Origin: Planctomycetaceae bacterium
Lineage (GTDB): Bacteria; Planctomycetota; Phycisphaerae; UBA1845; UTPLA1
Assembly: GCA_006969385.1 (NCBI GenBank)
Contig: CP030884.1
Span: 310,001 to 374,000 of the forward strand
Direction of reading: 5' to 3'
DNA length: 64,000 nt
The position numbers and the translations under genes were made by a program. Below are positions 50,361 through 54,289 of this stretch, in pieces (position 1 is the stretch's first letter; each line of letters begins with the position of its first letter). Under the pieces are notes generated by a model. It was given only the letters and a program-made list of their open reading frames with translations, did no database searches and had not been told where the DNA came from.

Positions 50361-52544
50361 CTACACCACCGCCAACTCCCGCTCCACCTTCACCAACACC
50401 GCCTTAAACGCGGGCGTGCGCGACTGCGGATCGACCGTGCGCGGCACCAGCACGTTCGCCTCAGGGTAATACATCACCGCGTTGCCGGGGCGGATATCGA
50501 AGGGTCGCACCAACAAGCCTTTTAGCTCGCCCGTTTCCGATCGCACCGTCACGCGATCGTCTGCGCGCAGGCCGCGCTCTTTAATATCTTCCGCGCTCAT
50601 CAAGATCACATCGCGCCGCGTTTGATGACGGTAGATATCTTCCTCTTCGTACACGACCGTATTGAACTGTCCTTCCGAGCGAATCGTCATCAAACGCAAC
50701 ATGCCCGTCGGCCGCGCCGTATCGGGAATCTCCAGCGTTGCAAACTGCGCCTTGCCGTTGGGCGTGTTGAACGTGGGCGTATGAAACGTGCGGCCATCGA
50801 TCTGAAACTCTTGCTTCGTCTCATCGATCGCGCCCAACTTCTCCCAACCCGGCACCACCTTGGCAATTGCCTGTCGTATCGTGCGATGCTGTTCCATCAT
50901 GGTGAAATCGACCGGGCTTTCATCGCCGACCACGCGTCGCGCCAGGCCCGCGATCACGCTCACTTCCGGGCGCGGCCCCGCATGCCGCGGTTTGCCGCCG
51001 TCGCTCAGCCGCACGTAGTTAAACATCGATTCCTGCGTCGTCTTCTGCGGATCTTCATCGCGCGCCAACACCGGCAGCACCAATGTTTCGCGCCCCCGCC
51101 CCCACGCGTGGCCGGTGTTCAACGTGGTACTCACATACACCATCATGCCGGTATTGTTTAACGCTTCTTCGGCAAAGGCCGCATCCGGATTGGCACCGTA
51201 CAGATTGCCGCCAAGGCAAATGCCGAAATCCATCTCACCGCGCGCCGCCGCTTCCATGCAACGCATCGTGTCATAGCCCTCGTGCTCGGGCAGTTTTAGG
51301 GCATATTCGCGTTCGAGCGCTTCGAATATCTTGCCCTTGAGCTTCGGCGTGACACCCACACTGCCGATGCCTTGCACGTTACTATGCCCGCGAATCGGCA
51401 TCATGCCCGCGTGCGGCTTGCCGACCATCCCGCGCATCAACGCGAGATTGACAATCGCGCGCACGTTCTCGACGCCGTGCACATGATGCGTAATGCCCAT
51501 CGTCCATGAAAAGACGACTTTCTCCGCCTTGATGTAGCGCGCGGCAATCTGTTCGATTTCACCGCGCGGCACGCCGCCTTTATTCTCAATATCTTCCCAG
51601 ATGGCATTCTCGACAGATGTCTTAAAAGCCTCCCAATCGTCCGTCGCCCGTGCAATAAAGCCGCTGTCGATCGCGCCGCGCTCCAACACGACCTTGGCGA
51701 TGCCCGTCAACACGGCAATATCACCACCGATATGCGGCTGTATGTAATCGCTGGCGATCTCGCTACCGAAAAACAAACTGCGCACGTCCGACGGTACGCT
51801 GAAATTCACGAGCCCCGTTTCGCGCAGCGGGTTAATCACCACCACATGACCGCCGCGGCGGCGGATGTTCATCATGGTGCGCATCAATCTTGGATGGTTG
51901 GATGCCGGATTGCCGCCGATCAGGAACAGCAAGTCCGATTGTTCGACATCGTCGAGCGTGATCGTCGCCGTGCCCGTGCCCAACGCCTGCGACAGCCCCA
52001 CGCCACTGGCCTGATGACAGTAGTACGAACAGTTGTTCACATGATTGGTGCCGTACATCCGCGCGAAGAGTTGCAACAAGAAGCCCGCTTCGTTCGACGA
52101 GCGACCGCTCACATAAAAGTAACCACGCGTCGGGTCGGTCGCGCGCACCTTAGCCGCCACCCGGTCGAGCGCGTCTTCCCAATCGATCACGCGATAACGA
52201 TCGTCGTCCGGCCCCGCATACAACGGTTGCACGATCCGCCCCGCGTGTTCGAGTTCGCGCGGTGTTAGCGTCTTTAACTCGGCAAAGCCATACCGCCGGA
52301 AAAACTCGGCCCGCAAGCCATCCTGCATATCGGCGGCCATCGCCTGCAGCGACTTCTTACAAACCTCCGGCCAATGCCCCGCCTCGTTCCGCATGCCGCC
52401 CCGCTGCCCGCCCATGCCCAGCGCGCACGTCTTGCAAGCATTCTTCGAGCGCATGGCCCGCCACAACCGCCGCCAGCCCACACGGTCAGCAATCTCCAAC
52501 GTATATTTAACGGCCGGCCAGCCGCCACCGGTTTCTAGGGGCAT
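50361..52544 (-). CDS. Molybdopterin oxidoreductase, YdeP/FdhF-like alpha subunit
   Basis: A 727-residue cytoplasmic molybdenum enzyme of the YdeP group, related to formate dehydrogenase alpha subunits. The N-terminal segment ACKTCALGMGGQRGGMRNE is the group's characteristic cysteine region in place of the normal iron-sulfur domain. The molybdopterin domains contain SGRSSNEAGFLLQLFARMYG, NNCSYYCHQASGVG, LIGGNPASNHPRL and RGHSNVQGIGSVG, and the C-terminal cofactor domain ends FDIRPGNAVMYYPEANVLVP. The ATG at 52544 has AAGGAG 7 nt upstream, which rules out a longer start. In Escherichia coli the YdeP relative is tied to acid resistance, but its reaction is unknown. No accessory genes (fdhD, mob) lie nearby. 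Confidence 0.87.
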   Translation of the reverse strand: MPLETGGGWPAVKYTLEIADRVGWRRLWRAMRSKNACKTCALGMGGQRGGMRNEAGHWPEVCKKSLQAMAADMQDGLRAEFFRRYGFAELKTLTPRELEHAGRIVQPLYAGPDDDRYRVIDWEDALDRVAAKVRATDPTRGYFYVSGRSSNEAGFLLQLFARMYGTNHVNNCSYYCHQASGVGLSQALGTGTATITLDDVEQSDLLFLIGGNPASNHPRLMRTMMNIRRRGGHVVVINPLRETGLVNFSVPSDVRSLFFGSEIASDYIQPHIGGDIAVLTGIAKVVLERGAIDSGFIARATDDWEAFKTSVENAIWEDIENKGGVPRGEIEQIAARYIKAEKVVFSWTMGITHHVHGVENVRAIVNLALMRGMVGKPHAGMMPIRGHSNVQGIGSVGVTPKLKGKIFEALEREYALKLPEHEGYDTMRCMEAAARGEMDFGICLGGNLYGANPDAAFAEEALNNTGMMVYVSTTLNTGHAWGRGRETLVLPVLARDEDPQKTTQESMFNYVRLSDGGKPRHAGPRPEVSVIAGLARRVVGDESPVDFTMMEQHRTIRQAIAKVVPGWEKLGAIDETKQEFQIDGRTFHTPTFNTPNGKAQFATLEIPDTARPTGMLRLMTIRSEGQFNTVVYEEEDIYRHQTRRDVILMSAEDIKERGLRADDRVTVRSETGELKGLLVRPFDIRPGNAVMYYPEANVLVPRTVDPQSRTPAFKAVLVKVERELAVV

Positions 52545-52634
52545 GAGGGGGCTCCTTAATTGATTTAACGACAATAATAAGGGTAACCAGATGTTATCGA
52601 ATTATGTTCGCATGAAAAATAATGATGGCCAGAT

Positions 52635-53783: not shown

Positions 53784-54131
53784 TCAAACCATCCCCCCAT
53801 ACGCCTCCTCATTAAACCCCACGTACAGCGTCTTGCCCTTGCGAATCGTCGGGGCGCGCAGGTTGCCCGTGGGGCCGAGCAGGTGTTTGAGTAGCTCCTC
53901 TTCGTCGGGCTTGTCTTTTTTCATATAGATCGTCGTCACAGTCTTACCGCGCGCGGCGACGATCTTGCTAACTAGCCCCGCCAGCTCCAACGCCTCGGCT
54001 TTGCCCAGCTTGGTCTTATTGGCAGTGACCGTCTCTTTGGCTTCCACATCATGATTCGCAAGGAACCCTTGCGATTTCTTACAAGACGTTCAGCCGTTGC
54101 GGTGGTAATACCAATCGATCTTCTTGGCCAT
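53784..54131 (-). CDS. Probable selenoprotein: ArsC/Spx-like thioredoxin-fold protein with UTSC motif
   Basis: Reading the in-frame TGA at 54090-54092 as selenocysteine gives a continuous 115-residue protein. It starts MAKKIDWYYHRNG-U-TSCK and continues KKSQGFLANHDVEAKETV through the ArsC-like helical part (EELLKHLLGPTGNLRAPTIR) to GKTLYVGFNEEAYGGMV. U-x-x-C stands where ArsC/Spx-type and other thioredoxin-fold proteins have C-x-x-C, right after the first beta strand. RAPTIRKGKTLYVGF corresponds to the RP-x-G-x-VGF end of ArsC relatives. AAGGA stands 7 nt before the ATG at 54131. A SECIS-like hairpin follows the TGA. A start at 54047 would give an 87-residue fragment without active site or ribosome binding site. 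The reaction is unknown; thiol/selenol reductase is likely. Selenocysteine is inferred; the machinery genes are not in this window. Confidence 0.8.
54056..54074 (-). promoter_or_regulatory. Candidate bacterial SECIS element
   Basis: In the transcript the stem UCGCAAGG / CCUUGCGA is perfect (8 bp) and closes a loop GUU. The stem starts 15 nt after the UGA and the loop starts 23 nt after it. Known bacterial SECIS elements need a loop about 16-37 nt from the UGA with a G among its first two bases; both conditions are met. The hairpin bases are also codons of the protein. Confidence 0.75.
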
Positions 54132-54289
54132 CGTGTTGTCCTTTCGTGATGAAGGGATTGTTTCATTTGCATGCATCCGTCGCATTGTGTTGATGGGACG
54201 TGACGCAATATCGTTCTCGAGATTCTCACGGGAAACATCAAAGTTCGCAAAGTTGATCCCAGAATGCTCCATCCGTTGCGATTTTACCC

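Follow-up and report, generated by a model that had tools for sequence, protein, structure and literature searches.

The reading frame and its in-frame TGA

The window analysed here, a stretch of 64,000 nucleotides, carries on its minus strand a short frame that opens with an ATG at 54131-54129, seven bases downstream of AAGGA at 54143-54139, and meets a TGA at codon 14. Beyond this codon the frame stays open for 101 further codons and ends in a terminator that is again TGA (53786-53784). With the in-frame TGA read as selenocysteine (Sec), residues 14-17 become U-T-S-C, codon 17 being TGT. The ribosome binding site, the start codon, the TGA and the 101 open codons had all been proposed in the initial annotation and were confirmed by the sequence and its translation. 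The features of the locus are as follows.

53784..54131, minus strand: complete coding sequence of a 115-residue protein that includes Sec14, plus stop codon (translation with TGA read as U; matches to NF041106 and PF03960)
54090..54092, minus strand: in-frame TGA, codon 14, predicted Sec (TGA or Cys codon in the loci of relatives)
54081..54083, minus strand: TGT codon of Cys17, which is predicted to be the resolving residue of UxxC (conserved as Cys in 111 of the 121 aligned protein rows)
54056..54074, minus strand: SECIS-type hairpin with an 8 bp stem and apical loop GUU at 54066-54064 (folding, conservation, consensus model)
54139..54143, minus strand: ribosome binding site AAGGA, 7 nt upstream of the ATG (read by eye)
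53784..54047, minus strand: 87-residue GTG-start ORF, which a gene caller would report and which is probably not the real product (ORF list)

For family assignment the protein was scored with C in place of Sec. It matched NCBIfam NF041106, 'ArsC family (seleno)protein', with 145.9 bits against a cut-off of 85, residues 5-111 covering positions 1-107 of the 107-position model; the [UC]xxC motif that marks members of this family is present, with TGA (codon 14) in its first place and TGT (codon 17) in its last. Pfam ArsC (PF03960) gave 30.9 bits against a cut-off of 24, with residue 9 aligned to model position 1, and no second Pfam ArsC match was found in the genome. A search of ~5.8 billion proteins returned 2320 relatives at E <= 0.001, and the best 120 of these were aligned with the full-length protein of the window to give 121 rows. 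At residue 14, 88 rows have Cys (among them the window's own, entered with C in place of U), 29 have a gap, three have Trp and one has Leu; thus 87 of the 91 relatives' rows that reach this residue, among the best 120 of 2320, have Cys. The four rows with Trp or Leu run against the Sec reading. At residue 17, every row has either Cys (111) or a gap (10). Among the columns counted, Gly62, Gly86, Pro87, Gly89, Arg92, Pro94, Gly99 and Gly105 are invariant in all 121 rows. P0089 and P0121, metagenome proteins in which Trp or Leu occupies the Sec position, perhaps come from a pipeline that reads TGA as Trp.

If the TGA were an ordinary stop, the real product would be the 87-residue GTG-start protein, and the 13 upstream codons would be a leader or a chance frame. 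The initial annotation had anticipated that automatic gene calling would give a truncated product from 54047, and the mechanical ORF list does include this ORF at 53784-54047. An equivalent product is on record for a relative: in the same-genus genome L022, the letters of the NCBI-sourced protein P0006 (86 aa) start at a GTG that lies past the TGA, which shows that this kind of truncation occurs in practice. In L022, GAAAGGA stands ahead of the ATG of the full frame. The short ORF, however, lacks the UxxC motif and the first strand of the structural model, and with them W7, Y9 and R11, of which W7 and R11 are found in 92 of the 92 protein rows that extend to them and Y9 in 91 of 92. The codons ahead of the TGA show coding constraint: when the window sequence was taken as reference against 99 TGA locus rows (codons 5-13, 891 codon comparisons), differences at codon positions 1, 2 and 3 numbered 134, 102 and 372, so that substitutions are mostly at the third position. 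Relatives with a Cys codon read through the same place without a stop. Termination at codon 14 is accordingly extremely improbable, and the 87-residue ORF is probably not the real product.

Elsewhere in the window, 50361-52574 on the minus strand encodes an FdhF/YdeP family molybdopterin oxidoreductase (TIGR01701, 721.6 bits, cut-off 582.15) in ordinary codons.

Codon 14 and the hairpin in relatives

We then compared codon 14 in the DNA of relatives. Among the best 80 of 499 loci confirmed in the genome collection, it is TGA in 71, TGC in seven and TGT in two, so that the homologues with Cys at residue 14 that the initial annotation had suggested looking for account for nine of the 80 named loci. 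By their record titles, these loci belong mostly to Planctomycetota, with a few from Acidobacteriota, Zixiibacteriota, Eisenbacteria, Cyanobacteria and FCB. In a class sample of 298 genomes, all from the class to which the source of the window belongs, 35 have a member over the NF041106 cut-off; 34 of these members contain one internal TGA and one contains none. DNA was fetched for 30 class-sample members, with TGA at codon 14 in 29 and TGC in one, the latter being the member without an internal TGA. The placement of the TGA at the first Cys of a CxxC motif, as had been proposed, is borne out: full-length homologues start ahead of the TGA, and in nearly all of them residue 14 is Cys or is encoded by TGA; the opposite pattern, homologues that begin past the TGA with no conserved Cys or Sec at this place, was not what we found. 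One TGA form, L081 from Zixiibacteriota, has Ser at residue 17 (UxxS), the sole such case in 110 locus rows.

The mRNA downstream of the TGA can form a hairpin with arms at 54074-54067 and 54063-54056 (minus strand), which pair in an unbroken 8-pair stem closed by the loop GUU (54066-54064). The stem begins 15 nt and the loop 23 nt after the TGA, and the computed folding energy is -11.5 kcal/mol. This agrees in every respect with the perfect 8-bp stem of SECIS-fitting geometry described initially. The bacterial SECIS model as given in a 2026 review (PMC13188914) has a loop of 3-9 nt, a stem of 4-16 bp, a G at loop position 1 or 2, a UGA-to-loop distance of 16-37 nt and an MFE of at most -7.5 kcal/mol; the hairpin here has a loop of 3, a stem of 8 bp, G in first position, 23 nt and -11.5 kcal/mol. 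When the 26-nt piece was shuffled 200 times with its dinucleotides kept, no shuffle folded as well (z -4.76), and a wider flank weakens this excess, with 4 of 200 shuffles as good at 41 nt and 7 of 200 at 57 nt. An unbroken 8-pair stem arose in 0.87% of 20,000 synonymous recodings of the same peptide. At this one locus the hairpin is suggestive; comparison across relatives lifts it above chance.

For this comparison we used 82 distinct TGA segments and 10 Cys segments. The pairs able to form average 7.2 of 8 in the TGA segments and 2.4 of 8 in the Cys segments, and the unbroken run counted from the loop averages 6.96 and 0.6, respectively. Over 500 synonymous recodings of the TGA segments the mean run was 2.15 (sd 0.11, highest 2.57). 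The loop is GUU in 78 of the 82 TGA segments. With the 26-nt piece folded alone, at least 5 of the 8 pairs appear in the best fold for 79 of 82 TGA segments and for none of the 10 Cys segments; when 48 nt from the TGA are folded, the count is 61 of 82, the other 21 showing a competing fold or another stem. The run is shorter than 6 in five TGA rows (L027, L073, L074, L075 and L086): the innermost pair is open in L027, the stem is shifted in L074 and L086, and it is slightly changed in L073. The fifth, L075 (record 'bacterium isolate 8_bin.21'), is a TGA form without the family stem, in which a different, longer hairpin folds instead; selA and tRNA-Sec are present in its genome. The stem pairs are thus kept in TGA forms far beyond the needs of the peptide and are not kept in Cys forms.

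Within the TGA forms, two silent positions vary with the choice of residue at other codons. With four of the 82 rows set aside (Tyr at residue 23, or residue 22 neither Gly nor Glu), Phe23 is TTC in 44 and TTT in none of the rows with Gly22, and TTT in 31 and TTC in three (L027, L074 and L086) of the rows with Glu22; Phe codons elsewhere in these genes are TTC 127 times and TTT 33 times. Codon 20 ends in G in 61 of 82 rows, 60 of which have C in the middle of codon 25, and in another base in 21, none of which has that C. Cys forms have residues other than Gly or Glu at position 22, and the Gly/Glu-Phe link is not comparable there. In a kinship control over well-supported branches, three of four and a mean of 3.6 of five independent pairs were as predicted and none was opposite, a result that is not significant by sign test. 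Because independent compensation events are few, the main case for the hairpin rests on the contrast with synonymous recodings and on that between TGA and Cys forms. As the Phe23 codon tracks Gly or Glu at residue 22 in TGA forms, the family offers a good natural test of selection on a SECIS element.

In a tree of 92 sequences, Sec and Cys interchange at least six times, four of these changes being forced by well-supported branches. The nearest Cys relatives, L029 and L038 (Planctomicrobium), join the gene of the window at 100/90 support; selA is present in the genome of L029 and was not found in that of L038.

These data also bear on whether the TGA is a lesion, that is, a TGC or TGT Cys codon mutated to TGA in a pseudogene or through sequencing error. 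Cys relatives do exist, and the TGA and Cys codons are one base apart. Against this, 82 distinct sequences from several phyla, well beyond a single assembly, share a TGA at codon 14, the stem folds in TGA segments and not in Cys segments (79 of 82 and 0 of 10 for the 26-nt piece), and the rest of the frame is intact with a third-position bias, which makes a lesion hardly credible.

Selenocysteine machinery

The initial annotation had proposed a check of the genome for selA, selB, selC (tRNA-Sec) and selD, whose complete absence would have told against Sec; the full set was found. selA lies at C1:1439214-1440569 (450.8 bits, and 516.6 bits with TIGR00474) and adjoins selB at C1:1440660-1442555 (362.1 bits), selD lies at C1:1680527-1681447 (381.2 bits), and tRNA-Sec with anticodon tca lies at 3656669-3656762 (68.8 bits, gathering score 47). 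The genome thus holds all four components expected beside a selenoprotein gene. The selD gene (L010) has an in-frame TGA of its own, within SCAGUAGK, and the selenophosphate synthetase SelD of this genome is probably itself a selenoprotein.

In the class sample, a selA match is present in all 35 carriers of the family (34 over the cut-off; in the 35th, G251, selA is in two contig-end pieces) versus 74 of 263 non-carriers. All class-sample carriers, though, belong to the window's own order, and most listed non-carriers of that order have selA too, so the association with selA is largely one of kinship. For the named loci, 65 of 71 TGA genomes and six of nine Cys genomes have a selA that exceeds the cut-off (Fisher p = 0.06). 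Of the six TGA genomes without selA over the cut-off, L040, L043, L057 and L079 gave no match, L042 gave a 53-bit match only, and L100 has a contig-end piece plus a weak match; the shortfall may reflect missing sequence in these genomes, for which completeness is not given. Three of the nine Cys genomes have neither selA over the cut-off nor tRNA-Sec over the gathering score, and the other six have tRNA-Sec. With at least six Sec/Cys switches, no stem in the Cys forms and these three Cys genomes, the family is suited to studies of the trade of Sec for Cys.

In seven genomes (G077, G089, G095, G101, G227, G233 and G347) the SelA match breaks between model positions ~259 and 267, with ~80 to 150 bases between the pieces where ~20 would do, in the same open frame; this is perhaps a lineage-specific insertion.

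Suppression of the TGA, or its reassignment to Trp or some other residue, would accommodate the Trp in three relatives' protein rows and the Leu in one, yet the gene's own terminator is TGA, the genome has a tRNA-Sec with anticodon UCA together with all Sec genes, and 87 of 91 relatives' rows have Cys, so that this reading has practically no chance of being right. The codon-14 counts in relatives, taken with a stem that is kept in TGA forms and not in Cys forms, indicate that the TGA almost certainly encodes Sec. Judged from sequence, codon 14 is very probably read as Sec by the genome's own SelA, SelB, SelD and tRNA-Sec, to give a predicted UxxC redox enzyme of the NF041106 family. SelB would bind the hairpin and deliver Sec-tRNA at the UGA. 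In the finished enzyme, Sec14 would attack the oxidised substrate as a selenolate, Cys17 would resolve the mixed intermediate to leave a Sec-Cys selenenylsulfide, and a cellular thiol or thioredoxin would then reduce the latter.

Fold, likely chemistry and known systems

The AlphaFold2 model has a thioredoxin-type fold (mean pLDDT 83.7, pTM 0.73), in which Sec14 sits just ahead of the first helix (15-26). Among solved structures, those closest in fold are Spx, YffB and proteins related to the ArsC family. The initial annotation had likened the C-terminus to ArsC and Spx; the likeness holds for fold and for sequence, and neither function gains much support from the residues or the gene context. 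Fold and motif point to a predicted UxxC thiol/selenol oxidoreductase. No neighbour family within 4 kb or less is common to more than 7 of 93 loci, bar frames overlapping the gene itself, and no ars-like gene was seen by eye among the 25 largest neighbour clusters; the neighbourhood thus offers no hint of the substrate. Arsenate is a less likely natural substrate than a disulfide or another oxidised sulfur compound.

A role as a genuine arsenate reductase, in which Sec would be the catalytic nucleophile, would fit the family name, which is taken from ArsC, the fold common to ArsC structures and the status of the gene as the sole Pfam ArsC match in the genome. The place of the catalytic Cys, here Sec, does lie within the ArsC-family domain (PF03960 at 30.9 bits; model and fold matches). 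In E. coli ArsC, Arg94 is presumably directly ahead of the cis-Pro. In our alignment the residue ahead of the conserved Pro94 is Arg in 0 of 121 rows, and the invariant Arg92 is one residue earlier. Arsenate reduction by ArsC requires the triad Arg60, Arg94 and Arg107, according to PMC5155266 and PMC3169414, and this triad is not evident from the sequence here. Together with the lack of ars-like or widely shared neighbours in the surveys above, this makes an arsenate reductase very unlikely.

The protein might instead be an Spx-like redox regulator that binds RNA polymerase, with Sec in place of Cys in the CxxC switch. Spx (B. subtilis etc.; PDB 1z3e, 3l78, 3gfk) has the same ArsC-type fold, the best PDB matches by sequence are Spx chains (3l78, 5.6e-06), the CTSC motif of Spx aligns with UTSC and its R60 with R61, and the gene lies downstream of rplL in the window's genus. 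In contrast, the scores with the NCBIfam Spx models are far under their cut-offs (TIGR01617, 34.5 of 75.05; NF002459, 34.1 of 123; NF009210, 26 of 159; NF009885, 25.2 of 152). Spx R92, the Arg ahead of the conserved Pro, aligns with A93 (alignments to 7f75_G and 6ghb_A), a position that is Ala in 106, Ser in 14 and Thr in one of the 121 rows. Spx G52 is needed for contact with the alpha-CTD, as stated in PMC2801614; no conserved Gly is found at or next to the corresponding column (columns 52 and 53), where the alignment is unsure by one residue or gap. A search of 110 loci showed rplL close to the gene in no other genus. An Spx-like role is thus very unlikely, and its bolder form, in which a Sec-Cys Spx-type sensor beside nusG-rplKAJL in this genus would tie the RNA polymerase of planctomycetes to the status of oxidants or selenium, is more doubtful still.

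A further related protein is YffB, a proposed glutathione-dependent thiol reductase with the catalytic motif GX3CX3K (PMC3169414). YffB (PDB 1rw1, 2kok) has an ArsC-type fold, as does the model of the present protein, and lacks the full Arg triad, which is not evident here either; the match by sequence is weak (1rw1, E 1.4e-4 by profile). YffB is not known to have a UxxC-like pair.

The initial annotation had called the gene a probable unannotated selenoprotein. This is true of the present copy alone, the family being already catalogued: Table 1 of the 2026 review lists an 'Arsenate reductase-like protein', NF041106, with UxxC and one Sec, apparently under 'Predicted with high confidence' (PMC13188914), citing the 2008 Global Ocean Sampling survey. 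That survey lists 'Arsenate reductase 2, cd03032, UxxC' with 42 sequences (PMC2398784); that this set is the NF041106 family rests on the review's citation. A literature search for NF041106 returned PMC13188914 alone, and 'arsenate reductase-like' occurs once in PMC9312934. No experiment on the family was found in the literature searched, which included PMC1794560, PMC4807772 and PMC12013277. In genome annotation, the locus is a clean case in which gene calling that stops at TGA cuts a selenoprotein off ahead of its predicted active site.

Arsenate reductase selenoproteins from the Sargasso Sea survey (PMC1088965; TIGR00014 in PMC13188914) are likewise ArsC-superfamily proteins with Sec; they differ from the present protein in having a UxxS motif and belonging to another family model. 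With NF041106 (ArsC_rel_Se_1) itself the protein shares a full-length match, the UxxC motif and a single Sec, and differs in nothing in kind. The kind is therefore already known, and what is new here is this copy, cut short by gene callers, together with the detailed record of its SECIS element.
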